Shown here piece by piece: positions 7,743-48,214 of a stretch of DNA of 64,000 nt (the stretch's first letter is position 1; each line of letters starts with the position of its first letter). The position numbers and the translations under genes were made by a program. The stretch lies in the NCBI RefSeq assembly GCF_025602895.1, contig NW_026516275.1, positions 168,695 through 232,694 on the forward strand, read 5' to 3'. This DNA comes from Polychytrium aggregatum. Lineage: Eukaryota > Chytridiomycota > Chytridiomycetes > Polychytriales. The notes below the pieces were generated by a model. It worked only from the letters and a program-made list of their open reading frames with translations, had not been told where the DNA came from and did not search any database.

Positions 7743-9026
7743 TCAAAGTCTATCTCGGACAGATTGCCACAGCCCCGGAAGTCTCTCACCAACAGACTTG
7801 TTGATCGAAACACAGGCCTCAAGACCTCCCTGCGGCGAGTCCAAAATAAACGCACATCCATCGAGTTCGATTCGGACTGGTCCGGCATAGACTGGCTTGG
7901 ATCCAAAGTCGGGCTTGAGTAAGCCCATGCCGGACCAGGAGCTTACGATAAAGTCCTTTCCGATCTGAATGGAAAGTACAATACGTTCTTGCCTGGGCTG
8001 GGTATCGAGATAGTTGACGGTGTCTCGCATGAACTCAGCGCTCGTTCTCTCGATACCCTGTCGAACCCGCCTTGCTGCTTGGGCGATCTTGTCTTGGTCC
8101 AGCCCGATCCACTCTTGGCGATGCTCCATGATGGCAGTGAACACGGCGTTACCAAAGTAGTTGGGAGGCAGACCAAGCTTCGCTCGGCCGTTGATGGCGT
8201 TGCTGGAACGGAAGCTATGCTGAGGATCGCGGGCGGCACCGACAACCATAGTCACAAGGCCGATGAAAGAGTCCATTGTGCTGGCAAAGTGGCCGGCCGG
8301 CTGGTCTGGGGGATTGGTCCAGTTCTTGAGCTTGACCAGCTCCTCGGGAGACAAGTAGAGCGAGACGCTGGTCGTCGAAGGTGGGCCAGAAGAAGACCTT
8401 GCCTTGGCTTGGAGGGCCTCGATTGGAACAGGCACAGTGAAATATTCGGGGTGAGCCCTGGCCGGAGGGCCGGTGCTGAAGAGGAGACTGCGATCGTGGC
8501 AGGGCATCAGCTTTGATTGACCACGGAAAGCACGGCCCCACGACTCCATCAGCTGGAACATGGAATCTCCGTCGAGGACACTGTGGTGCGCCGACAGCCC
8601 GATAGAGAGGGCGCCGTGAGCGAGCTTGGAGACCTTGACTGCGAAAATGCGCTCGTCGCGCAGGGGCAGGAGATTGAGCGGTCGCTCCTGGGCAAGAGCG
8701 ATGTGGTCCTCGGGTCGGTCAACAAAGAGCAGCAAGGGCTTGAGCTCCGGGTCGATCAGCACAGAGGCAGAGCCGTTGTCTGCGCCGTGCTGGACTCGGC
8801 CAAAGAGGATGGGATAGTCCTCCATCACAGACCAGAACGACTCTTCCAGGAGCGACTGGGGATACTCGCCGGGCGGGTAGATGTACACCAGCGCAAACAG
8901 AAAGACGTGCGCAACGGTGTCCATGGGCGTGAGCCTTACAACGGTGCCGTCCGTGTTGCTGTCGTCAGCCGCGGCTGCTGGTGCTGGTGCTGCTGATGCT
9001 GCTGTTGGGGATGTCGAAGCGGGCAT
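7743..9026 (-). CDS. BAHD-type acyltransferase
   Basis: Single exon of 427 aa, the usual size for BAHD (PF02458-type) enzymes, which transfer acyl groups from CoA thioesters to alcohols or amines. The N-terminus has the family-typical VVRLTPMD. The HxxxD active-site motif reads HHSVLD (His148, Asp152). The second family motif, DFGWG, appears as DFGSK at residue 373, so the Trp-Gly part is missing. I chose ATG at 9026 because conserved sequence begins just after an Ala-rich leader; the frame stays open to 9359, but that extension runs through a 10-bp tandem repeat and has no conserved content. Fungal relatives include trichothecene 3-O-acetyltransferase-like proteins; the substrate here is unknown. 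No biosynthetic-cluster partner is adjacent. Confidence 0.85.
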   Translation of the reverse strand: MPASTSPTAASAAPAPAAAADDSNTDGTVVRLTPMDTVAHVFLFALVYIYPPGEYPQSLLEESFWSVMEDYPILFGRVQHGADNGSASVLIDPELKPLLLFVDRPEDHIALAQERPLNLLPLRDERIFAVKVSKLAHGALSIGLSAHHSVLDGDSMFQLMESWGRAFRGQSKLMPCHDRSLLFSTGPPARAHPEYFTVPVPIEALQAKARSSSGPPSTTSVSLYLSPEELVKLKNWTNPPDQPAGHFASTMDSFIGLVTMVVGAARDPQHSFRSSNAINGRAKLGLPPNYFGNAVFTAIMEHRQEWIGLDQDKIAQAARRVRQGIERTSAEFMRDTVNYLDTQPRQERIVLSIQIGKDFIVSSWSGMGLLKPDFGSKPVYAGPVRIELDGCAFILDSPQGGLEACVSINKSVGERLPGLWQSVRDRL

Positions 9027-9561
9027 TTCGGGCTCCAGCGTCTCAATCGTCGAGGGGGGTGGGCGAGAGGAGCAGGGAGGCCAGGGGTCTGTTGTGGATG
9101 TCTTGCAGACCCACACACGGCAGTGGCGCAGTGGCCATGGAGGGACGGCGTGCGCCACCCGCCCCTGGCTTGGCAGGCACCACATTGCCGAAGCATCAGG
9201 CGACATTGCAGTCCATCGCAGTCCATCGCAGTCCATCGCAGTGCATCGCTCTGCCAACGACTTTGTGGATAGTGGCGTATCGTCATCTCGATGGACGGTC
9301 GTTGGATGTTGCGTGCTGTTGATCCGGCAAAGCACAGTGCAGCGCTGTGCTGGCGACACGTCGTTCCAGACCAGACCCCTGTTGCGATACGGACATCGAC
9401 ATACAAACGACTCGCAAGCAGTTTATTTCCACGAGCAGGCGGTAGGCGCCAGGCATCAAGGCATCTCTGCGACAAATCCAGCCATCGCTTTCGGCAGCTG
9501 CCGAGTGCTGGCGATCTGTGATCCCTGGTGGCTGTGCTGATGAAGACCGGTGCGACGAGAT
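9027..9561. other. Upstream region of BAHD gene / 3' region of Elongin-B-like gene
   Basis: Both neighbours are on the minus strand, so this is the BAHD promoter followed by the 3' UTR of the Elongin-B-like gene. It contains the 10-bp tandem repeat listed separately. Nothing else is supported. Confidence 0.45.
9208..9247. repeat. Four tandem copies of a 10-bp unit
   Basis: Four adjacent copies of gcagtccatc, the last with one substitution (gcagtgcatc), upstream of the BAHD-type gene. Length and purity are read directly from the sequence. It may overlap promoter DNA; no function is inferred. Confidence 0.9.
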
Positions 9562-10240: not shown

Positions 10241-11255
10241 ACGATGAGAATATGGGCGGGCAGGCCGGACCGATCGGCGAGGCTGCAGAGATATCCTATG
10301 GGGCAGGCTATCGCTGAAGGCGAAATCATCAGGATAAGCAGGTGGCGGAGCTGCAGCCAGCTCATACCATGGTGTGCGGACAGCGAGGCGGCGATCAGGA
10401 CGATCCAGAAGGAAGATCTGCGACGAGGCCAAGCGGGACTGCGGGGGTCGCGGCAATAGAGCGCTCTCAAAACGAAGCGGGACATCCCGCTCTGAGCCAG
10501 GACAGTTGTTGCTTGCTGGAACCTGAATACATCCACCCACTCGTTGCATTCACGGCCAAGCAGTATGTCCAAGGAGACCGAGGCCGTCATCGCCGTTGGC
10601 AATGCTTCATGGCGTCAAGGCAAGGGCTATGCATCCAGTCACAGGAGATAGCGATTGTGAGACCGGAGAGCGTCCCAATGTCTTCACTCGGAGGTGATTT
10701 GCTGAATTGCATGTGGTTCTGTTGGATTCATTCTCATCACACACTGCGCTGACATGCGGAATCAGTGGGGGTGTCCCGATTCCTCATGAGCAAAGTGTAT
10801 TGTGTGCGGGAATAGACAGCCCCGCTCATAGAACGCGGCCAGAGTAGCAAGCATGCCAATGAATACCAGCGAATGCCGAGGATGCCGAGGATGCCAAAGA
10901 TGCCGATGGATGCCGATGGATGCCGAGGATGCTGATTGATGGTGACCGCCGGGGACGGCACACAACGCCGGATCGGCCACACCGAGTACATAATCCGATG
11001 GCAATCCGGCGGCTGTCCTTCGATTCTGGTGCTGCCGACATCGCATTGCTTCCCAGTGGCATCGCAATAGCAACGACTGATTGGCTTCGATCACTGCTGA
11101 TTGCATCCATGCCCTCCGTCAAGCCCGTCGGCGCCATCGCGGTTGCTGAGAGCCGCTTTCCTCTCGGTCTGGACCGGATGTTTTCGGCTCTCCCAGAACC
11201 ACAAGGTCCCCCCCCCGTCTGCCCCCTGTCCTGGAGATCCAGACGGCCGTCTCGA
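10241..11255. other. Divergent intergenic region
   Basis: About 1 kb between two divergently transcribed genes, presumably with both promoters. It contains the GATGCCGA-type tandem repeat at 10872-10936. I found no additional gene; a possible upstream exon of the Elongin-B-like gene near 10240-10330 is the only candidate coding stretch. Confidence 0.45.
10872..10936. repeat. Imperfect 9/10-bp tandem repeat (atgccgagg / atgccgatgg)
   Basis: Seven or so copies of a 9-10-bp unit alternating between atgccgagg and atgccgatgg, in the promoter interval between the Elongin-B-like and receptor genes. Confidence 0.85.
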
Positions 11256-14200
11256 ATGAACAGCTTCGGGCAGCGATGGGTTCTAGCTGTCGCCTGGACC
11301 TGCCTCGGCATCGCTTCGTGGCTCGCCCAGGCGGCCGGCATAGTCCCCACGAGCACCATCAAGATCGGACTGATCTTTCCTTATAACTCGACCAATCCAT
11401 ACATTCAACGGTGGATCGGAGGTGAGCAAATGTCGCGCCAGCAGATCGTGGTGGCATCCCCAGCACTGCTGCTCGAGATTTCCGACGCGAGTCTCACCTC
11501 ACATCGTCACAATACCGATGCCGGATCGCAATCAGTTATGGAGGTAGGCTCACGGCATCGTTACGGTGCACCTGGACAAGCACAGCACCCATTCCACGAG
11601 CGCGAGTACGCCGTTTGACCCTTGCCAAACTCCTCCATCGACCCGCTTGGACGGGCTGCAGGGCGCCGCCAGAACAGCCGAGTCGCATATCAATGTCGCT
11701 GCCAACCGCTCTGTGGTCCAACTGATAACGGGATCGAGTGGCTCAGGCGAAGGCTTCACAGCCGTGTGAGTTTGGCCTCCGGACTCGAATTGCTCGAATT
11801 GCTCGAAGCAGCTTCATTCCGACTGACTGCGATTGAAGTCTGCAGCTGCTGTACGAAAGACCAACCCCGAGCGCTCATACAGATCGACCATTCTTCCAAC
11901 TAGGATCGCTCTCTCGTATCTGTATTACTCTGGCGCCACAGCCCTGATCGGCGACATCCTTCCGCTGGTATAGTGAGCAGTAGAGCACTTTGTACCAATG
12001 CTCGCTCGGTAACTCACACTTGTTTCACCACCCAGACGACCACGATTGAGGCAGGATACACCAACGCTTTTGAGGCAGGCATCTCAACTCTCTGCAGGCT
12101 GCATATTGGCTTGTCTCGACAGCATCTTCGACAACATTTCTGACGGAATGAGTTTGCAGCTGCCGCAGGTTTCCGTATTCCCCCTGGTGGATGTGCTCGA
12201 CAACAAAGCGGCGTATCCAGTAAGTCCCAGACATGGCAGCGGCGCCATCTTGGGTGGGATCGATCGACACCGCTGATAGATCGAGTCCGCTCGGATTGGG
12301 TCGAGCCTGATGGCACCACAATTCGATTGGCTGACCTGGCAAACCCAACGGATCTGTGCTCAGTTTTATTGGCGAGCGACAGCCGGTAGTCAAGCGATTG
12401 CAAGTGCCTTGACAGGTAAGGTCCCTGCCGAACTCAGCACAGCACCCGATAACAACAGCATATGCAGGAGTGACTGACATGGTTACCTCATACTCGATCG
12501 GATTTGCATTTCCGCAGCATATGCCACCATGCAAAACTGGACATCAGTAACTGTCATATCCGGCCCTGACGTTGGCTCCCGATCGTTGCTTTCGGATATA
12601 TATCTGAAGTAAGATACTGCAGTCTGTTCAGGATGAACACGCTCCGAGATCAGCTGTGCTAATAGAAGTAACTGGCGCGCATTTTCCTTTGAAGAATGAA
12701 GACCGTTGGGATAGGCATCGATTCCTTCAACATCTTCACTGACACGAGTCTCCCACCGGAGCAGGTATTTGGTATGTCACTGGGATGAGCAGAGCGGATA
12801 CGGGGGGGGGACAGCGATGCACCGTAATAGCCCAGAATACACTGAAGTGGCCTTGGTTGGGCACTCAAGTACCGAGCCTGTATTATTCAAGGAAAGTCAC
12901 CCGGACTTTGAACTCAACCGTCTCGACGTCTGGCCATCACAGCCAATACACTCGATCAAGCTCCAGTCAGCCTCGAGAGCGTCTATGAGGGCGTGGAGTT
13001 TGTGAAGAAGCGCTCCAACATTGTCATCCTCAGCATCACCGACCCCGCGGTTGTAATGTTGTTCCTGAAGATCTCATGGTAAATTGCTTAGACTGCAGTC
13101 ATGCCACGATTTATGCCATGCTGAAATCTATGCAACCTCAGCTAACTGGCACTGAAATGCCAATAACGCACAGGTACGAGTACGGTCTTCTCGGGAGCCC
13201 GTACGTGTGGATGGGTCCGGAACTGGCCGGGGATGTCTCCCAGACCAAGGGTAAGCCAGACTTTTCTTGGCATCTGCTGTCGAGCCATGCAGACGATCGC
13301 TCTGACGAGCACGATCAGCATCCCGCGATCGACTGGCCCGTTGCTAATGTCTTTGAGTCACAGGCATCTTGGGCGATCTGTTCAACATCCAAGATTTCCA
13401 GGGATACATCCAGTTCTCAGAGTCCACTTTATTCAAGGATGCCACGGGGGGCTTTGTGGACCTCAACGGACGTCCCCTGCCAGTCAACATTTCCTTCACC
13501 GACACTCAGCTCGATGATAGGGAAACAATGTATTCTTATGCAATGTGAGGATTGCTCGTTCGCCAAGGTGAACTGCTATCCCAGGAGAGTGTCGACGAAG
13601 GCCTGACTCGTGATTTTCGACTGATTCGCCATCGAAATTCGATCAACTGGCAACCGATTGGCTGCAGGGCTACCTATGATTCCGTCAATGTGCTCGTTAA
13701 GGGAATCCAGCAGGTATGCATCGCTTGGCTGGAGCAGCCCAGGCATCCCTCCTCGAGGGGCTTCCATGTTCACCACTCGATATCGGGCACTGGGTAACAC
13801 AATCAACTCGATCTCCAGAGCATGATCTCCCCGACCCCGTTGCAGACGCTCATCGCGGATCCAATCCATTTTGCTCGGGGGCTTGACTATACCGTGTTCA
13901 AAAACACGGGATATATCGGGGCCGCAGGTCCATTCATTCTCAACAACAACGGCGAGCCTCAGTTCTCGTAGGTTTTAGCTGCGCAGCGATGATCATGTCT
14001 CGGTGGTAGCAGCATCGCAGCGGACGACATATAGCTCACCAAATCATGTGTTATCATCACAGAATCATCAAATTTCGCTCGTTTGTAAGTGAAACTACTG
14101 TGAATACCTTAGTTCCGGAGATATCCAATCTACCGAGCCACCATTATCCGCCCACCCTTCGTTGCAACCGCTTGGATGGGAGCAGGCTGGCGGAGTCGGC

Positions 14201-17200
14201 CGCCCTGAAGAGTAACGAGCTGCAGTCACATGGGAATCCGGCTCACTTGGTGCTGTTGAGCCGAACAGATCTTGATACAATTTGAGAGCGCTGACTTTGC
14301 CTGAATTCACATAAACCCACCCAGATCAGGCAGCTCAACAGAACATCGACCCTGGCTTACTACAACACTACGCAGCAGAAAGTCACTGTGATGCGTGGCA
14401 CTGGGTTTATAGGATACTCCGGAAGCGGCAAAGTAAGCGAGGGTGGCCGGTGAGCGACGTTCCTTGGGTTGGTCTCGTGATTGCACTATTTGTGTCTGAC
14501 CTGTGCTGACTGTGATGCATCAATATCAGCCACCGACATCAAGATGCGGTAGGTGGTCAAACTTGATGCGAGTGTACCAGACATATGCACCACAAGGCCA
14601 TCGGCTGACATTGGTTTGACTGTCAGACAACTGTCCGATCGGAACGATCCTGGTCGGTGGTGTCTGCATGGAATGTGGATTCAATGGTATGTTCAGAAAG
14701 CGGCTGGTGGCCTCGGCTGCAGTTTCGAGTCTGTGCATCACCGGTTGATATCCTGCAGGCCAATGCCTCGCCACTAACGTTTGCCGTTGCTCTGGCACCT
14801 TGAACCCGCTGAAACTTGCAGAACCTCAGAGCAGCTCGACAGGACACTCCCAGTACTACAACATGTCCAGCGGGACTTGCGTTGGCCCGTGCCCATACGG
14901 TAGGGTACAATCGTCGCTTCGCGTGGATCACAGCGTAAAATCCGCCGCCCGATTGGCTGTTTCTCGATCTTGACACCAATCGATATCCTACTGCAGGAGG
15001 GCGATGCGTCGATTCGTCTACAACGCCTCTACCGCAAGCCGACTATTTCCGTTTTGTCAACACTCACTACTATCGAGTATGGTTTTTGGAATGCCCAGAG
15101 GTCGGCGTGTGCTGTCCGGGAGGTGAGTGCCCATGAACGGCCGCAGTCGATGCAGGTCGGCCGCGCGTGTGTCTGTGTTGTTTGACGCCGGTGTCGAATT
15201 GCCTCTCGTGTCTGCTGCAGGAAACTGCACCGAGTCGTCGCTTTGTGCGCCCACCATGACCGGCACCTACTGTTCAAGTTGTCGTCTCAACAACACATAC
15301 AAATGGAACGGGGCTTGTGTGCCCTGCGACAGCTCAAACTGGGACATTGCTCCCATAATCAACCTGATCCTCGCCTACTCCGGAGTGGCTATCTTGATTT
15401 ATCTGAAGCCCAAGAGCGCAAACACGTTTATTTCTGATATGGTACCTGCCATCCGCAGCGGTGCCAAGCTCAGGGGTGGTCGTGCGTGTGCGCTTTGGAC
15501 GCTTTAGCATGGTAGCTTCATTCGCTAACCCTACCTGTCTGCTCATTTGGCGGTATGGCAGATCATGTTCTATCAAATTGCTACGATTATGTACTCTGAC
15601 ATGAGGACGGTGGCCGGGACCATGTAAGCACAACTGCACAGATAAATCCTGAGGGTGGCCCAATTGTCCATTTGAGTGTCGTGTGAGCGTCGCAACCAAC
15701 CTTGTTTGTGTAAGCGTCGTCGTTGTCGGTACAGCTTCTGGAGCCTCTGTTGATGCGATAATGATCATATGCACTGGTCGAAATCACACAATTAATGCAA
15801 ATGCTGGTTTGCCCAGAGTCAACATTGTTGGATTCAATCTGCAGCTTGGATCAAAATCATCCAAATGTGTCCTGCCGCTGGGCCCGCTCTCCAAATCGAT
15901 ATTCGATGCGTACTTCCAGCCGGCCATCATCATTGTCTCGTATGGCATGATCACGTTGTTTGCGTACATGTTCCGGCGGATCAAGGAGCGCAACGTGGTG
16001 ATCAAGCTGTGGTTTGAGAAGCTTGTGCCGCAGTGGCTCCAGAACTGGAATTTTTCGATCCAGGCCATGATTGCAGCCGTGGACATTATGATGTACGTCG
16101 AGAGGCCGCTGATCAATTCGAGTGAGTATATTTGCTCGCACTGGTTCAGCCGCGGCGACTATGCTGCTGCACGAGACGGTGGGATTGCTGTTGGTGCGCA
16201 TTGCTCTTGACGCTGACTCGTGCATTCGTAGGCCTTAGCTTCAACGACTGCATCAAAGTGCCGCTCAAGAACCAGTACTTGCTGCGATCAAATCCTGCTG
16301 TCGAGTGCTTTTCAACAACCCAATTCAACACAGGTGAGTTGATCCGCCCCACCAGCGGGTCTCTTCACCAATAGCGAAACGAAATATGCAACCTCGGCTA
16401 GGTATTTTTGATGGTGGCACTCGTCGTCGTCTCAACGTTTCTGACGCTTTGATGTTCTGCTGACTCGACACAGTGTTGATCCTGAGTTCCTTTGTCGCTG
16501 CATTTTTGAGCATTGGGATTCCGATCCTCGTCATGGTTGCGCTCTATCTACGCAAAGTACCGAGTATGGCTTGCGTGTCACTGCTGCTGATCAAAGTCGG
16601 AGCCCTCGAATCTCAGTGGAGGGGTGGCACTGCGACGATGGCGACGATGGCGACGATGGCTGCTTCACAGGGATGGAAGCGGCAACAGAGACTCACGCTC
16701 ACGTTCGCGTTCTGTTCCAGAAATGAGGCCCTATCTGATCTGGACCCGTCCGTGGCTCCACATTCTGTTTCGGTCATACAAGAAAAAATATCACTGGGTG
16801 TTTTTCTTTGATCAAGCCGAAAAGCCCATTCTGCTGTTGATGATGTTCTTCATCAGCCACAGTGAGTATTTTGGGCACAACAGGCTGGGCAGGCGCTCTG
16901 CATGTCGCCACAGCATGTGCATCCCATGGAGCTTGCGATAGTCACGGCAATGCAGCAGTTCGATCGGATGAGTGATTACGGGCAACTGTCTCCGAGCAGC
17001 GAGGCTTTTACTGATTCAAGTGGCAATCTCCAGCCGGCATTCAGTCGATTTGCATGATGCTGTTTATCTTTATTTCGGCGACCTTTCGCCACATTATGCA
17101 GGTAGGCTCTAAGGGAGTGACTCGTGATTGCTTCCGGACACTCGCATGCGCTTTTAGGTGGATTGCGGCACCACGTCGCGTGCACTGATTGTGATCAATT

Positions 17201-17798
17201 CCTCGCGACACAGCCATACATATCCACGCTCGATAACTACGGAAAGTCCATGTGCGAGCTCAGTCTCACGGGAATCGTCTGCCTGCGGATGTTGCGACTC
17301 ATTGCAATCAAGTCGTCGGCACGTAGTGGCTTCCTGTGGAGCAAGAGCGACGTGGCCGGAAACAAGTGGTGGACCCTCGACATGATCCTTCTGGTGATTC
17401 CTCTCACTCTTACCCCAATCAAGATCTGGGTGATGTTCAAGTCGGCAGCCCGGAATCCGACGCTCCAGCGGGCCTCCAAGAATGTCTTCAAGGCTCTCTC
17501 GGCCACCACTATGAACCTGACCCTGAGCCGAGCCGACAGCGCAAAGCAGTCGTCGCGGCTGGAAGGCAAGCTCGACACACTACCTCGTTCGGCGAGCATG
17601 GCCATCAGTAGCAAGCACTCCAGCCTCGAAGCACTCGATAACCGAAGCTCCCAGCTCCTGGTTGCCGAGGACGGCAAGTCAGGCACAAGCCACAGCCACT
17701 TCCTTCTTCCACTAAGCGCACACAGGAAGAAGCAGCTTGGATCGTCACTAAGCGATTCCGTGCCTTCGTCGTCAATGCCGAACCCGCCGGGCAGATAG
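11256..17798 (+). CDS. Receptor-like protein: ANF/periplasmic-binding-like ectodomain, Cys-rich region, 7-8 membrane helices, 27 exons
   Basis: Hand-built model of 1092 aa. Exons: 11256-11421, 11536-11543, 11662-11765, 11904-11972, 12123-12219, 12364-12415, 12518-12608, 12695-12771, 12967-13078, 13174-13250, 13364-13544, 13668-13713, 13819-13967, 14063-14084, 14325-14432, 14530-14548, 14627-14686, 14759-14899, 14997-15122, 15221-15441, 15562-15623, 15817-16121, 16232-16333, 16474-16563, 16721-16861, 17034-17101, 17214-17798; total 3279 nt, all phases consistent. A signal peptide (to AQAAG) precedes IKIGLIFPYNST, typical of type I periplasmic-binding/ANF receptor folds; ALIGDILPL, LPQVSVFPLVD and NWTSVTVISGPDVG continue that fold to about residue 455. 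Residues ~455-605 are Cys-rich (CMEC, CSSC, CVPC). Hydrophobic helices follow around 612, 680, 800-825, 860, 880, 910 and 935; the last ~140 residues are a Ser-rich cytosolic tail. Likely a plasma-membrane sensor; ligand unknown. Exons 2-5 are the least certain. Confidence 0.75.
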
Positions 17799-17877
17799 TG
17801 CGGCGCCCTCATGATGCCATTCTTTTGATGTCATCCTTATGACAACATACTCCAGATATGCTATCGTGCCTGCTTAC

Positions 17878-17883
17878 AATAAA
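17878..17883 (+). promoter_or_regulatory. Putative polyadenylation signal AATAAA
   Basis: A perfect AATAAA lies 80 bp after the stop codon of the receptor gene, at the expected distance for cleavage and polyadenylation. Inferred from motif and position only. Confidence 0.4.
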
Positions 17884-18014
17884 CACCGGAACTGCATGTG
17901 CAAGTGCGAATGCGTGGTATTTCAGCAATATAGCAGCAGACTGCACTTCCCCCCCCCAAGAGTGGATCGGGGGGCTACAAACTACAGAAAGGAGAATACC
18001 AAGTGCCTGTCATT

Positions 18015-20955
18015 CTATGGGTTTGAGCTGTTCCAAGGAGAGGGCTCTTCGTCGTCGGCAAAGAAGAACTCGCCCTCATCGGCCGCGGTAGTGGCACCCG
18101 CCGTGCTGGGCTTTCGAATATCCTTGCTTGAGCCGGCCGTTTTGATATCCGGATGCGAGGCGTACGTCGAGTCGCGATGCGATTGCTTGCGCTGGAATGG
18201 AGGCGCTGTCTTCACGACGCTGCGGCGACTGGTTGAGAGCCGAGTGGCCTGTGTCGCCGGCGGACCAGCAACATCGGGAGGGGTTGCGGCGACGTTCACA
18301 AGCGATGCTCGTTGGGAGGCTGCGGTCGAGTTCACTCTGGACGACTCTGAAACTGAGTCGACAGCATCGGGCTCTAGGGAAATGAGGAACTGGCTTCCGA
18401 TGACAGAGTCACCGCCATAGAGCTCCTGTCTGCTTGAGGCTGTGTCGTCAACCAGATCGGTGGCGATTGATGTGTTTGACTGGAAGGTGATTTCGGCTGG
18501 GAGATTCGGCTCACTTTCGACTGGGTGGGTGTCCAAAGCACAGGTTTCGTCGCCTGGCTCCATCGTGGCGTCCGGCTGGGCACTGCCGCCGATCTGGGAC
18601 GCCTCCGTTGGGATACCATCAGAAGTTGGCGAGGCGTCGGTCATGATAATGCCCGGGAGGTCAGCTGATAGCACTGGGTCTGTTGGAGAGCTTTCGGGCG
18701 AGACCTCGACAAAGGATGCTATTGGTGCCAAAATCTGGATCTTGGGCATTGTCTTGGCCCCGTAGATGTTGCTTTCGGCGATTCGTTGGGCCTGCAGCAG
18801 CCGAAGCTGCTCCCGGCGCTCACGGGCCCTCCGCTCTCGCTCCTCCTGCTCCTGTCTCCGCTGCTCCTCCAGCCTGAGGATGGTCTGGAAGTTGATTCCG
18901 TGGATGTAGCACTGGCAGCCCTGGTCTCTGGCGTTGCGGGGCCGCGGGAAAAAGTCCGAGGTGAACTCCAAGGCCATGCGCTGCTTCTGGAGTATTCGGG
19001 CAAGGTGGATCGGATCGGTGAGGTGCATGATGGCGTCGATCTTGACGTCCCAGCTCTTGATCATCTTCTTCTTGCGCTTCATAAAGACATCGAGCTCGGC
19101 CTGGCTCTGCTTCTGCAGGGTCTCGATCTTGGATTTAAACTCATCCTCCATGTGGCGCAGCTCTCGGTCCATGATGGCGTCCTCGTCCTCCTCCTCGATG
19201 GGGGTTTCGATCGACTTGGCGGACTCGGATTTGCTGGACGTGGACGAAACAAGCGAGGAGCGAGCAGAGAAGCTTTGATCAGCCCCCAGGTCATCGCTCT
19301 CCACAAGCCGGACCCCAAAGCCGCGCATGGCCTGCCGAAGGATCGTCTTTTCGGCATCTTTCCAAATGGTTGCGCTCCGCGTCTTTTCGGGGTTGGAGTC
19401 GGACACCAGCAGCTCGTCCAAAAATACAACTCGGGAGCCCCCCAGCTTTTCTCGAACGGCTTGTTTCATCCGGGCACGCTCCTTGACCCTCTGGAAATAA
19501 TCCATCTGGCTGGCGAGCTCGATATCGGTGCTGCCTTCGGCATTCTCGGCCACGGTGCTTAGGGGTCCTGGTTGCGGAGTAACGCTGGTCTCGAGGCTGG
19601 ACGGTGTGGTGGGCTTGACAGGTGGGCAAATGACATCAAGGATCTCCTCGATGTTGCTCTTCCGGGTGCGCAAGTCGTGCAGCTTGTATTCAAGCCCGTC
19701 AAAGATTTGCTTGTAAAATGCGGTGATCTGGTCGACCTTGAACTTTTCGTGCATTTCCGAGGATTTACTCTGCGGTTGTTTTGGAAAGCGTGCGAGTTAT
19801 TGAGTGGCGCTGTGCGAAAGCGCGGACCATGGTTGCTGCATGGTTGCTGCATGGTTGCTGCATGGTCGCTGCCCGGTTGACGTCCGGTCTGACTAAACAG
19901 ATATCCCGCTCCCGTGGCTTGACTCACAGCAATGACATGTTGCAAATATCAATCTCGTACCAGTAGAGCCACATCGGCAACCCCCTTCTTCTTCAGCAAA
20001 AGGAAGGCTCTTGCGGCAGCATACTCGAGACGATGCATCTCGTGCTCCATCAGAATGAGATTCCTGTTGGCGCGGTCGATGGCGAGATCCATGTCCTTTT
20101 TCTTGGAGGCGTGCTCCTTTATCTTGGACTGTATCTGCTGTTCGTTGTAGGACTAAGGGAGGGGCGGTAAGATGGAGATGCAAATGCGTTGGGAGCTGGT
20201 GCGTGGTTGCCGGCAAGAGGGGATCTCTGTCGGTCGAGAGTGTGCCGAACCTGATACTGCGAGTAGAGTTTGTCGACACCCTCTGCAAGACTCTTATGGC
20301 ACTGCTTTCGCACGCTGCGGATCTTGCGGCGGTGCTCGTTCTCGAGGACGGCCAGCTTGGACCGGACGGTCTGCTCGAGGATGCGAAAGTTTTCTTTGAG
20401 ACGCTCATTGCAGTGGACGGCCAGCATCCGGGTGGTGATGTCGAGTTCCTAAGGGCGCGGGCAGCCCAAGAAGCAGCCACAAGAAGCAACCACGAGAATC
20501 AGCCACGAGACGCAACCGCAAGAAGAGCCACATGGCCGGTAGTTGTGTTTAGATACACTGATGGATACAGTTTGGCATGCACCACAGCGGTCCAGCCCAC
20601 AAATGCCACGGACAGCAGAATGGGGTGCCGTCGTTGGAGCCCTGTGAGAACAGATCCGGCCGAGTACCTCGTGGAACTTTGCGGCCATCTTTTCGACGAG
20701 CTTCAGATCGAGAATGTCGTCGTCGACCTGGGTGGCGCTGTCGATGAAGGACCTGCCCATGCGGATGTACTCCTCGCGCTCGTCCAGAAGCTCCTCCCAC
20801 ACACGGCCGAGCAGGCTGAGGTTCTCGACCTTGCGGGCCTCTGCGATTCCAGCCAGGCGGCGTGCAAAGACTTTGGCCCGGGCCATGGAGGTGAAGTTGC
20901 CAGCCATCGGCTTGGGCGTGGGAAGCAGGTCGGATAGACGGGAAAATGCAGACAT
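18015..20955 (-). CDS. Coiled-coil protein of unknown function, 4 exons
   Basis: Exons on the minus strand: 20668-20955, 20251-20448, 19961-20152 and 18015-19769, all in phase 0, giving 810 aa. I do not recognise the family. The N-terminal ~230 residues are predicted helical and charged, with heptad-like stretches (LEQTVRSKLAVLENEHRRKIRSV; MEHEMHRLEYAAARA). A second long coiled coil lies near residues 400-590 (DRELRHMEDEFKSKIETL; RLEEQRRQEQEERERRARER). The C-terminal ~220 residues are Ser/Thr/Pro-rich and look disordered. No membrane segment or signal peptide. It is divergent with the PTP gene and converges with the receptor gene. Size and composition would suit a cytoskeletal or ciliary scaffold, but that is inference. 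Intron 3 holds an 11-bp tandem repeat. Confidence 0.82.
19828..19871. repeat. Four tandem copies of an 11-bp unit inside an intron
   Basis: Unit catggttgctg repeated four times with one change in the last copy, in the third intron (19770-19960) of the coiled-coil gene. Confidence 0.9.
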
Positions 20956-22436: not shown

Positions 22437-25400
22437 ATGGGCAACCACCATTCCAAGCCGGGCAGCCCCGCCTCTGGCTCAAAGTCGTCGGCAATGCCAA
22501 AGAAACACTCGTCAAGCCAGCAGCCGTCCAGCAGCCCAAGCGCTGCCAAGTACAAGCACCTGGTTGTCCACAGCAGCGGCGGCATCCTCCCGCTGACGCT
22601 GCAATCCAGCCAAGTGCGTAAGCGTAGTTTGCAGACGGACTGGAGAAGCTCGGGATGGACATGGTGGGGTTTTGGGCGGCTGGCAAGGACAAGCTGTGCT
22701 CCGCAATGATTGCTCGACCTACCGTGATGATTGCTCGACTCGGTGTGATGATTGCTTGGCCTACCGTGATGATTGCTTGGCCTGCGTGGCTCTGGGATAT
22801 CTGGCATGTTGAGGCAGCGCCCTTCCTCGACACCCGGTGATATGCTTGGCCTGTGCGATACGGGCATGCCCCTGGCGGAGTAGCGGTCATCGTGGATCTG
22901 CCAAGCGCTCATCGGCCGGATGCAGCGGCTTCTGGACGATCGTGTGGGTTCCGTTTGCTCGCTTCTGATCCCCCCTTCTTCCCCTGTGTCTGCAGGAGCC
23001 GTCCAAGAACAGCAACAGCAGCAGCAACAGCAACAGCAGCAGCAGCGGCAGCGGCGCTGAGACTAGGCCCGAGGCCGGCCCCGACCCGCTGCAGTTGCCG
23101 GCCCTGCAGCAGATCACCCCACTGTCGAACTCGGTGCTTGCGCCGCTCACGACCGAGTGCTCGCGCTTTTACATGCCGTCTCTGTACGATCTCGGCAGCA
23201 GCAGCAAGCCCCAGAGTCCGCCAGCGCAGGCGAGCGAATGTATGTATAGCGGCCGTCGGAAGCATCGGGGGCATCGGGGACATCGGGGGATGTGCGCAAG
23301 TCAAATCGGCGATGCGATGCGATGCAATGGCGATGCGATGGCTTGGGCTGTCCCATTCCATCTCGCCGTTTGTACATTTGATTGTTTGCACATCCCACCC
23401 ATCGACCCCTCCCGTATGCACCAACCTCGTCCTCAACACCATCTCCCCCCCCGTCCACTGCACCGGCATTCCGCTCCCATCGCACCCATCCCGCCGTGCG
23501 CATCGCTGCCAACGTGCGGCGGGTCACACGGCGGTGTGCCGCTCCTGTCCGGGGGCGGCCTGCTCGCCGCTGTTCGCTCGGCCGCACATAGAGGCTGTCG
23601 CCTGCCGCTCGTCCTCCCCATCGCCTGTCTGTCTGCGCCGTCTTGCATCGTCTCTTTTATCGCCCCGCTCCGGCTCCGTCCTGCTCGATTTTACTTTGCC
23701 TCGCTTCTCACCCCGCCTTCGGCTCTGCCCCCTTGCAGTCCAGCCCTGTCCCGACCAGGCTTCCCTGTCCTGTCCCGTCCCTGCCGCTGGACCACAACAG
23801 TCCCTCGAATCTGCCGCCTCCGCAGAAGCCTCGACCCCATCTGCTCCTGCTGCCTCGTCTGCAGCAACAGCCTCCCTTGGACCCGCAACCTCCCACGACA
23901 GCGTTGTCTCGGTCGACTCCATCACCTCGTCGATCGAGCTTGTCTCCGCTGTGCCTGAGCCTGTTTCTGCATCTTCACCGATACCGCCTGCTCCCCTCCA
24001 AGCGCCGCCGTCCTTCCTGGATTTTGTTAGCAGCTTGACCGGCTTCCGCCCCCCGAACCCCCCGGAGCCATCGGAGCCGTCAGAACCGTCAGAACCCCTG
24101 GAGCCTTCGCGGAATTCATCATCCACAGAACGCCCATTTGCCCCTGCACAAGCCTTGATGTCCGCAACCATCACCGAGAATGTCCTGGCACACTATGCGA
24201 GCCCCGGTATCTCGCCCACAAGCTCCCCCGAGCCGTCAAAACCGTCGACCGGTATGCAGCTCGCCCCCGGTGCCGATGGTCTGCCGATGGCCGTGTTATA
24301 TTTCATTGGCATCGCATTTCACGCTTTTGCACTCACACTTTAACGCTTTGCATCCAAATTTGCTTGACCCCAGGATACGACGACGTCCCAAAGCCAAAGA
24401 CGCCTCCGCCGACACCCCCGTTTCCCGACCAGCCTCTTGCCACCAATCGCCAGACGCCTTCGCGCCTGTACTTCACCGTCGTCGGCAGCGACGTTGACAA
24501 CTACACCTCCGAGAGCACCGACAGCGACGAGGACGCCACCACCAACAGCGCCAAGCTCGAGTATTACGCCGAGGCAGCCCGCCAGGCGGCCCTCGAAACC
24601 ACCCAGTGGTTTTCAAGCTCGGACCGCAAAGACAGCAGCGCCAGTACCCGCAGTGGCTCGTCCATCTCCTCGTCGATTCCTGTCCGACCCATGTCAGTAG
24701 ACCAGGCTCCACATGAGCGGCTTCGTCCGCGCGGCTCCCTCGCCAGCCGCCGGTCGTCGTCGGTCGGCTCCAACCGTGGCCTGCAGCCGCCGCGCCTCAA
24801 CCTCAGCAACGTCAAAGCCCAAGGCGCCAAGGAGGACAGCCCCAACTCGGGCAGTAGCAGCAAGCCTGGCACCCGCCTTTCCCGACTGGGCGCACAGCTC
24901 CACCTGGATCAACTGCCCATCTGGCTGGAGACTCTGTGTGCCATGGATCCATCCGAGTGCGCCAAGCGCCTCCGCTCCAACTTTCGCGATCTGGAGGAGT
25001 ATCAGTCCGAAAACCTCAGGTCCGACTCGAAGCGCTTTCTCTCGGGCATCTCGAGCGAGCGTGAGAACCTTCGCCGCAACCGGTACAACGACATTGTCCC
25101 CTTCGACTGCAATCGGGTCGTGCTCAAGACGCTCTCGAACGGATCCGACTACATCAACGCCTCGCCCATCACGCTCCGCCACTCGGGCCAAGTTGGCTAC
25201 ATTGCCACCCAGGGCCCGCTCGCCCAGACCTTTGGCGAGTTCTGGCAGATGGTTTGGGAGCAGCACTCACGCGTCGTGGTCATGCTCACCAAGGAGGAGG
25301 AGCGCGGCCGCATCAAGTGCCACAAGTACTGGCCCGACTCGGTTGGCCGGCCTCGCAAGTACGAACTCGGCATGGGCGTGCTCTCGGTCGAGCTGTTGGA

Positions 25401-26310
25401 GGAACGGCTGGTATCGATGCCGCTGTTCCCGGACGTGACCCCGACCACGGCCAAGGACGACGGCGACAGCCTGAGGAGCGCCGGTGCCCTCAGCCTCGAG
25501 TCGCCCGAGCACTCGACCGTCCAGCGCGACTTTCGCCTGTCGCTCGTCCAGAACGGCCAAGAGTCCGAACGACGGGTGACCCAGCTCCACTTTACCGGCT
25601 GGCCGGACCGCAAGCGCAGCCATTCGAACGTTGTGCTGGCGCTCATCGAGCAGGCCAACTCCCTGCAGAGCAGCTACGCTGGCGAGGCCGCTCCGGGTCC
25701 GATTGTGGTGCACTGCAGCGCCGGCTGCGGCCGCACCGGGGCGTACATCTGCATCGACAGCGTTCTGCGCCAGCTGCGGCGGCTGCCGCAGTCCCTGCGC
25801 AGAGAGCAAGCCGACGACGCCATCTTTCGGACCGTCAAGCGCCTGCGGGACGAGCGCATCGGCATGGTCCAGACCTTTGACCAGTTTGCGTTCTGCTACG
25901 AAGCCGTCGTCACACAGCTGGGATACTGGCAGAAGGGATACGACCGCCCCAACGATAACGATGCCGACGACGGCCTGGCGCTGGACAGCCAACTCGCCGA
26001 GCCGGCGCCCACCACGCCGCGCCCCAGGCTGGTGATTGCCGCCGACCAAGCCAGCAGCGACGACTCTGCAGGCGACGCCCACGAAGACCTGGCCGCCAGC
26101 AAGAAGACGGGCAAGTTCAAGGGCAAGGCGCGGCTGGTGACCGTCAGCCCCGACGAGGTTGTGATGCCGCAACCACGATTCAAGGCCCGTCTGCTGCGCG
26201 AGATGCCCGACTCGCCGCTGGAGCTGTCGACACCGTCGACGCCGAGCGGCGAAGAGCGGTCGTTCTCGTGGGACCAGGTGCAGATCGTCTCACGCAGCCA
26301 TGAGGAGTAG
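22437..26310 (+). CDS. Classical protein tyrosine phosphatase with N-terminal myristoylation motif, 4 exons
   Basis: Exons 22437-22613, 22996-23239, 23739-24251 and 24374-26310 sum to 2871 nt, 956 aa. The first residues, MGNHHSKPG, match the N-myristoylation consensus (Gly2, Ser6), suggesting membrane attachment. A ~500-residue Ser/Pro-rich disordered segment follows. The catalytic domain covers about residues 515-865: [10 protein letters not shown] (pTyr-loop region), DYINAS, the WPD loop at 721-723, and the signature [10 protein letters not shown] with catalytic Cys759 and Arg765; [13 protein letters not shown] is the Q-loop helix. All catalytic residues are present, so it should hydrolyse phosphotyrosine. 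Fungal relatives (Pyp1/Pyp2, Ptp2/Ptp3) switch off stress-activated MAP kinases; whether this one does is unknown. The tail is acidic/basic and unstructured. Confidence 0.92.
22707..22792. repeat. ~20-bp minisatellite in PTP intron 1
   Basis: Four imperfect copies of a unit resembling cctaccgtgatgattgctcg, wholly inside intron 1 (22614-22995) of the tyrosine phosphatase gene. Confidence 0.85.
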
Positions 26311-36354: not shown

Positions 36355-37636
36355 ACCGCCGAGCCGGCTATCGCAATTGACCTGTATATTTCTGCCGACA
36401 AGCCCTCACCATCATTGTTTGCAACCTCCAACACATCGTCGTATCTCTTTGGCTCTATACTCTTGCTTCATTGTTTTGCTGCTCTCTCGTTCCGCTTTGT
36501 ATCAGTTATGCCGTCTGTCATCCCCCCCACCATTGCACTTGTATCCCACTGCATTGGCTATTCTGTGCTGCTCAAGTGCAGATCCTCTCTCTTTTTGGTC
36601 TCGCTCGGCTTGCTGCTGCATGAGAGCCCCCTGCCAGCACAGCACCACCAACCCTCCTCAATACAAGCCGTTCTATACACAATTCCCACAAAATGGCAGT
36701 GCACCCGGGTGTCATGGTTGAGAGTGTAGTCTCATTGAGTTATCACTGTTGTTTTGGTTGTGGTGAGCCCGAGCACCTTCCGATCCAGCCTGCCCCGGCC
36801 TCGTCGTTCTTGGCCAGGTGCATCTCATGTGGACCGATCCCACTCTCGACTATCGAGTCCCGAGCATGTCCTTGTGCACACCATGATATGCATGAAAGCG
36901 GTTCTCGGCAAGCCTTGTCAGAACAGTGGGATGGTTCACGCCACGGCCCCTGGTCACCCACCCCAGCCGCCCACAGCCAATCAGGTTCCCTGTCCCGCCA
37001 TGGCCACAAAACATGTGTCCGTCGTCACACCACTTTTTTTGCTCCCCCGATGGCGCAACCGCCGTTGTTCATGACGCTCTTCCGGCATCCATCGCCCATA
37101 TCAACCAGTGCTCCGCCCTGGACTATCGTCTTCCAGCGCCGCCATCGCATGGATGCTTCCTCCGTCAACCCAGGATATCCTCTAGAATTGATTCCAGGCT
37201 ATTGTCCCCAGCCGCCCCCGTTTTCTCCCTCTGGCCCCACAATCAACCGTCCCCGTCGAGAAATCCTTTCGTCCTGCCGTACTCGAGCTGCACATCTGCT
37301 CGTTCCGCCGATTCGATACCTACAGAACCACACCATATTCACGAGCTCCGGACATCTTGCTCTCCAGTGTCTCGATCACCAGTGCCAACTCTCGGCTGAA
37401 TCTCACGTTTCTGTCCGAACAGCTTCGACACTGTCTCGTGGGCGCCATTGCTGTTCTGCCGAACCTTCCTCCTGCCAGACCCAAGCGTCCGAAACCCGCT
37501 GGCTGTCGCCTCCGTCCCTTGCCTGATTCCGGATCATCGGCACGCTGGCGCCCCTCGTCTTTAAAAGCAGTGCCGCCGCCCAACTCCATCCCATTGCCCT
37601 CTGTTGTGGCCATCTCAAGCCCCTCCGCGAGATTCA
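36355..37636. other. Intergenic region between stress protein and F-box genes
   Basis: About 1.3 kb of C-rich sequence with long open frames but no conserved domain; I treat it as the 3' region of the stress protein gene plus the promoter/leader of the F-box gene. A TTTAAAA sequence at about 37560 could serve as a weak TATA element. Confidence 0.45.
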
Positions 37637-39394
37637 ATGCCTCATCCGTCCACCGCCCGTTTGCACGAGCCCTCGCCCTTTGCCCGGCTTCCGACCGAAG
37701 TCCTCAAGCTGATTCTGCACCAGCTTTCCGACCCGAGCCTGTTTTCGTGTCTGCTCGTGTCCAGACGGCTCTCGGCCCTCGCCAGGGAGGAGCTGTGGCG
37801 AGCCCCACCACTCTCTGCATTTGAATCCGTGATTGGTAAGCTTGTCGCATCCAATGCAATTCGTTCGGAGACCGATCGCCGTCCAGTCCCTCGTCGACCT
37901 ATGGGCACTCGCAGTCCACTCGATACAGATGCAGCCCCGAGCATTGCCCGAGTCAGACCCGCGGGGATTACTTCGGCGCATAACCCCGGAGTTTCAGCAT
38001 CCGAATCGCCCCTGCTCTCAAGCCAACACGACTCTCTGTGTCCTGCTGAAGCTCCCACAACCACGGACGCTGTGTCGATCCGGTCGTCGGTACCATCGCC
38101 CTCGTCGCTCCGGCATCGTCAAATGGATTCGCTCGGACACACGCTCCAGCCACTGCTGCAAGTCGGACGACTCGTGCGCTCGATATCTGTTTGCCACCGT
38201 GATATGACCAAGGCCACCCCGGCAGTGCTGTGGCTCATCCTGTGGGCCTGTCCTCATCTTCGGTCCCTCAGTCTCGATGCTGGACACGACCATGTCTCCA
38301 ACAGACCCTTGATAAGCTCGGCGTTCCTTCTGCAATCGGTGTCGTTTGCGTCCAGTCTCCGATCTCTCAGTCTCGGTACATGCGACTTGCAGGACCAAAC
38401 CCTGGCCGAGCTGGCTCGACTGTGTGGACCTACACTCTCTCAATTAGCTCTAACGGAATGCAGCGCCATTACCGAGCCCGCGCTGGTCAACTTCATCTCA
38501 CAGACGCCTGGTCTCAAAGCTGTCGAGTTGGGCTCGTTCCAGTCCTACCTCGGCACATTCTCGAACCGCCTGCTGGCCGGCGAAGCCCTCGTCATGGCTC
38601 TGGCCGATCTCTCCCATCTCGAGCGTCTTTCGATCGGGCACGGCATCTGCTCGGTCCACAAGTCCTGGATGGTCGGCCTCTCGCCAAAGTTCTTTCCCTC
38701 GCTACGCTCGCTCATCTTTGCCGCCTCCCACGATACGGCATCTCCCGAGGCAATGTGTGTGTGGATATCTCACTTGAGGAGTCTCTCTGAGCTATCGCTG
38801 GCCGGTGATTTCATCAACGAAGCCGTGGTCGAACAGAGCGTCCTGGCAACAGGACGGACACTGAAGGCGCTGCATCTTATCCAAGCAAGCCAGATGACCA
38901 TCCGAGCACTCCACCTCATTGCCGAGCACTGCCCCATGGTGCGGTCCCTGCAGTACACCCTGCCCCGGTCCAATCCCAGGCTCTCTGTCTCGCCGGGCTG
39001 GTACGATGGCGCCGTCGCAGACCTGCTCGACAAGTGTCTGCTGCTCGAGTCGCTCGCCCTGAACACTGGCCGATACGTCAAGTTCCACGACTCAAGCCTG
39101 GAGCAGATCATGCCCCGTGCCATGCGTCTCCGCGATCTGAAACTCAGCACCGGGCAGTTCCAGATCTCGGACGAGTTTCTGAGCCGATGCGAGGATCGGG
39201 GTCTGTTGTTTCCGAGTCTGCAGGCCCTGAGCTTTTCACTCATCGACGAGCAGGGCTGCTTTCCGCCGCCACAGCGCATCGTGCGCTTCGTGGAGCTGTG
39301 CTGTCCGGTCCTGAAGGCCTTTGACTGTGGGAACATTTCGATCTGGCGGGAGGTCACGCAGGCACTACCGACCATCAGACATCTGTCGTGGTGA
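37637..39394 (+). CDS. F-box protein with leucine-rich repeats
   Basis: Single exon, 585 aa. An F-box at residues ~14-55 (FARLPTEVLKLILHQLSDPSLFSCLLVSRRL, ending REELWRAP) would bind Skp1 in an SCF ubiquitin ligase. A Ser/Pro-rich linker (~70-160) leads to a C-terminal leucine-rich repeat array (HLRSLSLDAG, LRSLSLGTCDLQDQTLAELARLCG, LSQLALTECSAITEPALVNF) of the FBXL type that would select substrates. The substrate is unknown. I chose ATG 37637; the frame is open a little further upstream but without an ATG. No intron is needed. Confidence 0.85.
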   Translation: MPHPSTARLHEPSPFARLPTEVLKLILHQLSDPSLFSCLLVSRRLSALAREELWRAPPLSAFESVIGKLVASNAIRSETDRRPVPRRPMGTRSPLDTDAAPSIARVRPAGITSAHNPGVSASESPLLSSQHDSLCPAEAPTTTDAVSIRSSVPSPSSLRHRQMDSLGHTLQPLLQVGRLVRSISVCHRDMTKATPAVLWLILWACPHLRSLSLDAGHDHVSNRPLISSAFLLQSVSFASSLRSLSLGTCDLQDQTLAELARLCGPTLSQLALTECSAITEPALVNFISQTPGLKAVELGSFQSYLGTFSNRLLAGEALVMALADLSHLERLSIGHGICSVHKSWMVGLSPKFFPSLRSLIFAASHDTASPEAMCVWISHLRSLSELSLAGDFINEAVVEQSVLATGRTLKALHLIQASQMTIRALHLIAEHCPMVRSLQYTLPRSNPRLSVSPGWYDGAVADLLDKCLLLESLALNTGRYVKFHDSSLEQIMPRAMRLRDLKLSTGQFQISDEFLSRCEDRGLLFPSLQALSFSLIDEQGCFPPPQRIVRFVELCCPVLKAFDCGNISIWREVTQALPTIRHLSW

Positions 39395-45300: not shown

Positions 45301-48214
45301 CCAACCAACAATGGCGATCTCCTACCTTCACGACGGAGTCTGATCGTGGCGTCTTCATCTCCGCGCTCCTCGTAGATCTGCGACAGCTGGGCCTTGACTT
45401 CAATATTTTGGGGGTCGACATTGAGGACTGGCGGAGAAGGGCGTCAGCACATCACTTCAAGGATCCAGGCAAAACAGCTGTACAATAGATGCGCCTGCTT
45501 ACCCTTATTGTAGTAGAGTATGGCGCGGTCATAGTCGTCTGTCTTGAGTTGCTGGTGGCAGTATCCCATGAGAGCCCATGCTGCAGCGCTGTGGGCCTAA
45601 GGTGCAGCAGAGGATGATGCCGGCGGTAAGTCGCGCGACTGAACCAGAGAAGTGCCTAGGCAGTGTGCTGGACAAATGACACATACAGAATCATCTTCTT
45701 CGAGATAGTAGCACACGTCCAGCGCAGTTTGGTACATTCTCTTGCCGACGTATGCATCGATGACGTCGTAGAAGAGCTCTCTGTACTCGGACAACGGACT
45801 CTCGTACAGGTATGCAAAATGTGCCTGGATGCAGGGGTAGCGGGAGTGAGTGCCGCGGATTGAGTAGCCAAAGATTGTTGGTTTGGCCAAGTTGCAGCTG
45901 CACGCTGTAGACCAGGTGCAAATCAAGATGCATGATCGAGACGGAGGATCGAGACGGAAGATCCAGTGGCAGCAGATCAAGCTGCGAGTTTGAGCGCCAG
46001 GCTGTGTCGATTTGAGCAACACACCAGCTGCCACATATCCAGTTCAGTGGCACACACGCAAAGGCAGTTCAGACTGAGCGCTGGCCGACGGCGTCTGGAG
46101 GTTGATTGTCCAGTCTTTCCGACAGACTGGACCCGATCGTTATCACGAGCGTCTGTGTATGCAAAACCACTGACCTGAGCGACCTCAAAGTTGTCGAGCC
46201 ACAGACGACAGATGCCGAGCTTGGTGCGGAGCTCTAGCGGAAGATAGTGCTCTTCGTCGTCGTCAAACTCCTCGTCGTTTTCTTCCCACTCCTCCAAGAA
46301 TGTCTCTTGCTCGCGGTCTTGGATGCGGCGCGCACCTTCTTTGATCACCGCAATGCACTTTTCGTAATCCCTCATCTCGATATAGGCTTCAGCCATCTGA
46401 AGCAGCTCCTCGTAGCCAACGCGTGTCTTGACCGTGACGCGGGCGCCCATGACAATCTCGCCGATGACCTGTTCGTCATTGGAATCGGCGCTGGGCTTGC
46501 CGATAAAGTCGTCCAAATCATCGTCGTCGTATTCATTCTGGGCCTCTTCAAGAGCCAGCGGCAGCGTTGCATCCGCCTTGAATGCGGACTCGTAGAGCGG
46601 CAACATGCTTTTGCTGTCGCCGACTTGCGCGTAGAGCTTTGCGAGTACTTTTATGATGTCCACGTTGTTTGGGACAACGTGGAGCAGCTTTCGAAAACAT
46701 TCTATGGCCTGGAGAGTGGTGGTGAAGGACTTGTAAGGAGGCAGCTCATTTGACGCCGTTGCGGTTGTAAAGTGCTGCTCACGCAACGCTGATGCGCAAA
46801 CCAAGTGCCCCTATACGACGTCGTCGAATTGACGTTGGCCGCTGTCTCATGGACTGTGGTTCACCTTCTCGGGTTCCTCGAGCTTGACGAGGAGATGGGA
46901 TCGATCCCAGAGCGCCTGTATATCATACGGCGCCTTCTTTAGGGCTTGTTCGAGGGCATAGAGTGCCTGTTCGTCATCTCCCAGCTCGCTACAGTACAAA
47001 GTCAGTTGGACGGACGTTCCGGCGGCAAATCGAGTCGAGCCTTATCCTGCATGCACAGCAGCTGCGCTACTACCAGCGTCGCTGGCACGCTGGCGGGCAC
47101 TCACTTGGCGAGCACAGAGATGTGCTTCCACTCGTCGAGATCGGGTTTGAGATGCACTGCTACCAGCCGCGCATGCAGCTCCTTTTCTTTTTCGCCGACA
47201 TCGCCCAGCATCTGTGCAAGCGTCGTCCAGGCATAGGCGGAACGGGGCTCTTGGCGAAGGACTGTATGGCAGAGTTCAATCGCTCTCTTCATGTCTCGAC
47301 GGGCAAAGGCGCTGTTGGCGCTTCCGAGGGCGCTGTGCAGGTCCGGAGGCAAGTCCATGGCTTTTCGGCGCTGAGACACCACCAGACGGCAGGGGGGTGC
47401 AATGGAAGCAAAGCCAGGCCATGCCACAAGAATTCACAGGGGCATAGGGTAAATGCCAAGGCTCGTTGAATACCGAGGGGCTCGCTCCCCAGGGTATATG
47501 TCGAATGCTCGCACCGTGGCCAGTCTCTGGATCGATCAGATCCAGATTCCGCTGCTCGTCGCATGCCTCACGATATCCAAGCACCCACCCGGCGTCCGGC
47601 TCGTTTTCTCTTGCCCTGTTGCTTGGAGGAGACACCAAGAGCCTCGTCGATGTATTCCATGGTCTCTGGATCCTCGTCCTCCCAGAGCGTCGAGACATAG
47701 TCTTTGCCGGGCTGCTTCAGATCAGTTCCGATGTCGACAAGGGCTTCGTTGAGGGAGCGTCTGTCATGGAGCGGGCAGACCCGGGGCGAAGAGCAGGTTT
47801 GACGAGAGGATTAGTGAGGAGGGAGGCGAAGTCCATCGATGATCGGTCTCGACCATCACGACAGCACCATGGAGGCTGGGATGCAGACGACGGCGGCGCT
47901 GGATAGATCCGGAGAGTCCATGTGGCATACCCTACTCCGACGGGCAGCCGGCTTAGGTCGTCGTATTCGTCGTCCATGGGCAGGACGTATTCACTCTCTG
48001 ATTCGTGGTGGTCATCGCCGCCGGTGAAGACTCTGATTGGATCTGCAGGGCCGGGGATGACGGCCATGGGGCCTCCATCGCTCTCCCAGGTGCCGTCCAG
48101 GACGATCGAGCCGTCATCGGAGGCGTCGTCTTCATCGTTGTCTGGCTTGCTATCGTCGAGGAGATTCAGGGCGGCCTCCTTGAGCAAGCTGTCGATCTCT
48201 GCGTGGTCTGACAT
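42378..48214 (-). CDS. TFC4: TFIIIC subunit TFC4/GTF3C3 (TPR protein), 18 exons
   Basis: Exons (minus): 47931-48214, 47589-47760, 47105-47370, 46865-46988, 46175-46708, 45687-45824, 45503-45596, 45326-45427, 44926-45176, 44624-44689, 44211-44309, 43951-44077, 43729-43864, 43443-43600, 43134-43258, 42897-42984, 42721-42779, 42378-42509; 2955 nt, 984 aa, every junction in phase. The N-terminus is acidic; then GRRRRKAMDLPPDL leads into TPR repeats (FARRDMKRAIELCHTVLRQEP; AIECFRKLLHVVPNN), an acidic insert (EEDEE-type, residues ~330), and a second TPR block ending with the family-typical AYKLCPSDPITNLCLGISHIHRALQ, EVFYNIARAYHHIG and EAAYNCAMLHY. In yeast this tauA subunit bridges TFIIIC to TFIIIB at tRNA genes. 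One intron (44078-44210) uses a GC donor (gaaggcaagt). It converges with the CXorf65-like gene, 316 bp away. Confidence 0.93.

Follow-up and report, generated by a model that had tools for sequence, protein, structure and literature searches.

A putative Venus-flytrap receptor with a cysteine-rich stalk and a predicted nine-helix membrane module in Polychytrium aggregatum

The window, i.e., the whole 64,000-nucleotide stretch of Polychytrium aggregatum DNA that was analysed, carries at 11256-17798 on the forward strand a putative receptor gene of 27 exons that we assembled by hand from the DNA, with its ATG at 11256, a single stop codon (TAG, 17796-17798) and a product of 1100 aa. The exon count of the original prediction was borne out, and its protein length of 1092 aa was not. 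Exons 1-9 lie at 11256-11421, 11536-11543, 11662-11765, 11904-11972, 12123-12219, 12364-12415, 12518-12608, 12695-12771 and 12943-13078, exons 10-18 at 13174-13250, 13364-13544, 13668-13713, 13819-13967, 14063-14084, 14325-14432, 14530-14548, 14627-14686 and 14759-14899, and exons 19-27 at 14997-15122, 15221-15441, 15562-15623, 15817-16121, 16232-16333, 16474-16563, 16721-16861, 17034-17101 and 17214-17798. All 26 introns are of the GT-AG type and the frame stays open across every one of them. Exon 2 is a microexon of 8 nt (11536-11543, forward strand) that restores the frame between exons 1 and 3, and both of its flanking intron borders were recovered with at least one of the guides described below. 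As judged by eye, a gatgccga unit is repeated in a short, tandem-like array upstream of the start codon, at about 10860-10940.

The gene model is hand-curated, some splice borders having been picked with ANF motifs in mind, and it was checked by guided prediction, for which four paralogous proteins served as guides, the splice scores were generic and the codon model was built without the receptor gene. The guides scored 792, 597, 555 and 752 on the forward strand at the locus, compared with 255-308 in the 16 controls (the reverse strand and three block shuffles for each guide). Taken together, the guides recovered 23 of the 26 introns; each single guide recovered 12-18, and single guides also called introns that are absent from the model. 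Introns 8 (12772-12942), 14 (14085-14324) and 17 (14687-14758) were recovered by no guide, and their borders are less certain. As the receptor protein had itself been the guide in the initial pass from which the four guides derive, the check is not fully independent, and its circularity is reduced, not removed. An ab initio chain for the locus (28 exons, 921 aa) was without the ANF-homologous and stalk exons and was dropped. A second haplotype copy of the gene (L037; contig C397, 716500-726000) differs from positions 10900-18000 of the window in 16 alignment columns, five of them in exons, and every indel between the two copies lies outside the exons. Near-identical contig pairs are numerous in the assembly, in which both haplotypes are kept as separate contigs, the copy on C397 being one example.

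The encoded protein begins with a probable signal peptide (aa 1-27; 11256-11336), for which the evidence is hydropathy, with a hydrophobic stretch at aa 9-27. The next part is an ANF-receptor or Venus-flytrap ectodomain (about aa 28-417, exons 1-13; 11337-13967), in which PF01094 (ANF_receptor) matches aa 127-419 with 32.7 bits, above the cut-off of 25.4, in a model whose borders are partly ANF-informed. This agrees with the ANF-like, sensor-like ectodomain that had been proposed. The same profile scored 121 bits in the ectodomain of paralogue L039, 107.3 in L040, 77.6 in L038, 74.3 in L041 and 73.9 in L043, and in L044 the ANF domain is represented by one exon with 49.1 bits, also above the cut-off. 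When the PDB was searched, the full receptor protein matched no chain at E up to 10, and the ectodomain of L039 found GABA-B receptor subunit 1 (E 4.2e-13) as its nearest solved structure. When the genome was searched in six frames, PF01094 returned only loci on contigs C323 and C46, which are the paralogues L043 and L044; the receptor gene was missed because its ANF domain is cut into short exons.

A linker (about aa 418-466, exons 14-16; 14063-14548), which has the least certain borders of the model and contains the unrecovered intron 14, leads to a cysteine-rich stalk (about aa 467-612, exons 17-20; 14627-15327). The CSSC and CVPC motifs noted in the original prediction are present at aa 594-597 and 609-612, and the cysteine pattern of the stalk is conserved in a ten-member alignment. 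The nine-cysteine domain NCD3G gave no match in a Pfam scan of the receptor protein, and in one paralogue a stalk piece matched it at E 0.022 with 15.1 bits, below the cut-off of 38.9; GABA-B receptors are also described as being without NCD3G in the accessible part of one report (PMC5168858). Two further Pfam families touch the stalks of other members, namely DUF7630 (PF24633) in four of ten (best E 3.5e-5) and DUF7631 (PF24634) in five of ten (best E 0.0071), with all listed bit scores below the cut-off (at best 24.3 vs 27), and neither matched the receptor protein itself in the Pfam scans. A search of the genome with PF24633 at E 0.001 returned nothing, and neither did its controls, and a literature search on DUF7630 found no paper. 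Since the stalk touches two families of unknown function below their cut-offs, parts of the wider family may already sit in databases without a description.

The stalk is followed by a polytopic membrane module (about aa 613-985, exons 20-27; 15328-17450), with predicted helices at aa 619-638, 650-668, 704-723, 751-768, 810-830, 863-882, 887-905, 918-936 and 960-980, and by a predicted cytosolic tail (about aa 986-1100, with the stop codon; 17451-17798) that has no Pfam domain above cut-off. Hydropathy averaged over the family gives nine peaks, that of helix 2 being weak (1.05-1.12). If nine helices are assumed and the stalk is placed outside, lysine and arginine are commoner in the predicted inside loops than in the outside loops in all ten members, with helix limits for the count set by us from hydropathy and with four of the ten members having poorly modelled C-terminal helices and lacking the loop from helix 8 to helix 9 in their models. 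When helix 2 is dropped, the bias is reversed in all ten. Hydropathy and charge together favour a predicted topology of nine helices with the N-terminus outside and the C-terminus inside, in place of the seven to eight helices suggested before.

Alignment of ten modules revealed 26 invariant columns; C688, C779 and C798 are invariant, all in predicted outside loops, as are the prolines P823 in the fifth helix and P907 before the eighth. The modules of L043 and L044 are modelled only in part and were left out of this ten-member alignment (A4), L043 being represented in alignment A1. In blastp, aa 613-1000 of the receptor matched the modules of five of six paralogues (E 1.9e-4 to 1.2e-12) and gave no match to that of L043, and the receptor module aligned with a three-paralogue profile over 373 columns with a probability of 99.2% (E 1.8e-19). 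These similarities may be inflated, as the paralogue models were computed, partly guided by the receptor protein, and merged by hand.

At least seven paralogues combine the stalk with the module, and six of them (L038, L039, L040, L041, L043 and, by one exon, L044) have an ANF domain above cut-off beside it. In the seventh, L042 (C403:162000-171900), stalk and module lie under an OpuAC-like ectodomain whose two pieces, in the right order, matched at E 0.0023 and 0.012 with 18.0 and 15.6 bits on hand-joined exon pieces, below the cut-off of 21.2. If this reading of a single paralogue is right, stalk and module would be constant and could carry interchangeable sensors. For L067, L068, L069 and L073, the DNA examined does not reach as far as the ectodomain, and these loci do not figure in the ANF count. 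Exon searches with five queries found many loci, and 44 hits picked from four of these searches merged into 30 places in the genome, among them several haplotype copies and some stalk-only matches, and we estimate the family at about 20 distinct genes. Some members are paired at a distance of a few kb and oppositely oriented, a pattern suggestive of duplication by inversion (C279 at about 98-104 kb and C13 at about 707-722 kb). A search for relatives in viral and prokaryotic collections with alignment A2 and exon 22, which requires short exact stretches and says nothing on other fungi, gave pattern matches, none of them confirmed; alignment A1 proved too little conserved for such a search.

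Because stalk and module recur under an ANF domain in the six paralogues, the sequence evidence indicates that the receptor locus is one gene, not two, and the same order of parts in these paralogues agrees with the earlier view that ectodomain, stalk and module belong to one protein. A misreading, in which two genes were taken for one or the exons were chained wrongly, could be suspected in a hand-built model of 27 short exons from which the ab initio chain differs and in which three introns went unrecovered; but with the part order repeated sixfold, frames open over 26 GT-AG introns and haplotype indels confined to non-exonic DNA, we regard it as very improbable.

From the stalk onwards, the receptor protein had no Pfam match at E up to 10, and 7tm_3 (PF00003) in particular matched neither the receptor protein nor any of the ten modules at this threshold. 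Profile-profile comparison of the module with five class C receptors of the same genome (hhalign) gave a probability of about 0.1%, whereas an ordinary class C receptor of this genome, used as a positive control, found mGluR8 in the PDB at 4.2e-22. Ordinary class C GPCRs are readily detected in the genome, with 58 exon-level 7tm_3 matches, 36 of them over the cut-off, counts that include haplotype copies and, among the 36, two that pass only with their neighbours. We conclude from these comparisons that the module is not 7tm_3, in line with the original prediction. The receptor could still be a far-diverged class C GPCR, with an ANF ectodomain, an NCD3G-like stalk and a G-protein-coupled 7tm_3 that has drifted past recognition. 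The order of parts is as in class C receptors, chytrids are rich in such receptors, a portion of which carry ANF or OpuAC domains, in the part of PMC3251606 that is accessible, and one paralogue stalk piece has the sub-cut-off NCD3G match. With 7tm_3 absent throughout the family, a profile comparison that fails where the control succeeds, nine helices fitting better than seven and a receptor protein without an NCD3G match, this explanation is nevertheless quite unlikely.

The membrane part had also been placed closer to cysteine-rich, TRP-like polytopic proteins of protists and chytrids, and stalk and module may resemble certain cysteine-rich polytopic proteins, known from protists and algae, to which the label TRP-like is sometimes applied. 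In the fungal TRP family (PF06011), too, a polytopic module follows a cysteine-containing lumenal or outside part. Neither PF06011 nor another channel family in Pfam matched the receptor, its paralogues or any of the ten modules; a search of the genome with PF06011 at E 0.001 also returned nothing, and it carries little weight, since its controls gave no match either. Searches of the PDB gave a best E of 2.9 with the seven-member profile and of 0.2 with the ten-member profile, the latter covering 62 residues and pointing to a bacterial ion transport protein; both are regarded as chance matches. NCBIfam, searched with the ten-member alignment, matched one member at E 0.68. The ion transport protein as best PDB match and the likeness to protist and algal proteins would suit an ion channel from a known superfamily, TRP-like or other, to which an ANF sensor has been added, but a match at chance level and the Pfam scans without any channel family make such an origin rather doubtful. 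Of the original interpretation as a whole, the single gene, the sensor-like ectodomain and the non-7tm_3 membrane part stand, the TRP-like character finds no support in the form given, and nine helices are favoured over seven to eight.

We propose, with a probability of roughly 60%, that the gene encodes a ligand-binding surface receptor in which a Venus-flytrap domain is joined through a cysteine-rich stalk to an expanded nine-helix transducer module that matches no described family in our searches. Both the ANF family and the domain exchange suggest that it acts as a sensor. Outside the cell, the Venus-flytrap domain would bind a small molecule, as the ANF family suggests; its closing would pull on the disulfide-rich stalk, and the stalk would move the nine-helix module, predicted to have its N-terminus outside and its C-terminus inside. 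To judge from the sequences, the module would be a transducer common to a large family, in which the sensor differs or, as one paralogue suggests, is exchanged. A class C GPCR is made less likely by the nine helices and the lack of 7tm_3, and for this reason a channel-like output is weakly favoured. That the module acts as an ion channel or gates one is, tentatively, the likeliest single output; action as a G-protein-coupled unit is less likely, and the remainder falls to others such as lipid or solute transport. Nutrient sensing by zoospores would fit the organism, and the zoospore chemotaxis suggested before is a conjectural role.

Class C GPCRs, including those of chytrids and Blastocladiomycota, are alike in having a signal peptide, an ANF ectodomain (OpuAC in some fungal members), a cysteine-rich linker in many cases and a polytopic part, and they are likewise expanded as a family within this same genome. 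They differ in that their membrane part is 7tm_3, whereas the module described here is non-7tm_3, with nine predicted helices and another cysteine pattern. Exchange of sensors over the membrane part has been described for fungal class C receptors, according to the accessible part of PMC3251606. The class C GPCRs of gut fungi come from a zoosporic lineage as well and carry binding-protein ectodomains on a polytopic part; as far as the available text of PMC5168858 goes, they were picked by GPCR annotation, have 7-9 predicted helices and, per the authors, no ANF domain, whereas the present receptor has ANF and lacks 7tm_3.

Our literature search, which left subscription papers mostly outside its reach, found no recognised description of an ANF ectodomain on such a module. 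A fungal GPCR survey uses 7tm_3 with seven helices as its criterion for the Glutamate class, in the part of PMC12842992 that is accessible, and because surveys of this kind require a known 7TM profile, the receptor family would go uncounted in them. It is conceivable, although more doubtful than the receptor reading itself, that class C GPCRs are paralleled in zoosporic fungi by another large class of Venus-flytrap receptors, with exchangeable binding-protein sensors, a cysteine-rich stalk and an undescribed nine-helix transducer that is possibly a ligand-gated channel. If so, the coupling of Venus-flytrap sensors to membrane transducers would have arisen repeatedly, and the family would provide candidates for chemosensors of chytrid zoospores. 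The receptors share their sensor type with animal glutamate and GABA receptors and may form a further set of chemical sensors that has been overlooked.

The assembly that holds the window comprises 64.7 Mb in 418 contigs. Chitin synthase gave 71 exon-level matches in it (best E 3.9e-229), with a profile that also matches four of 14 prokaryote controls. The best E for a radial-spoke gene was 3.9e-32, with a match in none of the 14 controls. The radial-spoke gene, the many chitin synthase genes and the short GT-AG introns fit a flagellated fungus, probably a chytrid. Within the window, the receptor gene is adjoined by an open frame on the reverse strand (7746-9422) with a PF02458 Transferase domain (E 5.6e-27), and just downstream of it a 593-aa open frame on the reverse strand (18018-19796) has no Pfam match at E 0.01. 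Further open frames encode a protein-tyrosine phosphatase domain (24031-26307, forward strand; E 1.9e-66), an F-box protein (37565-39391, forward), a TPR-repeat protein (45980-46810, reverse) and a PPR-repeat protein (57180-58880, forward).
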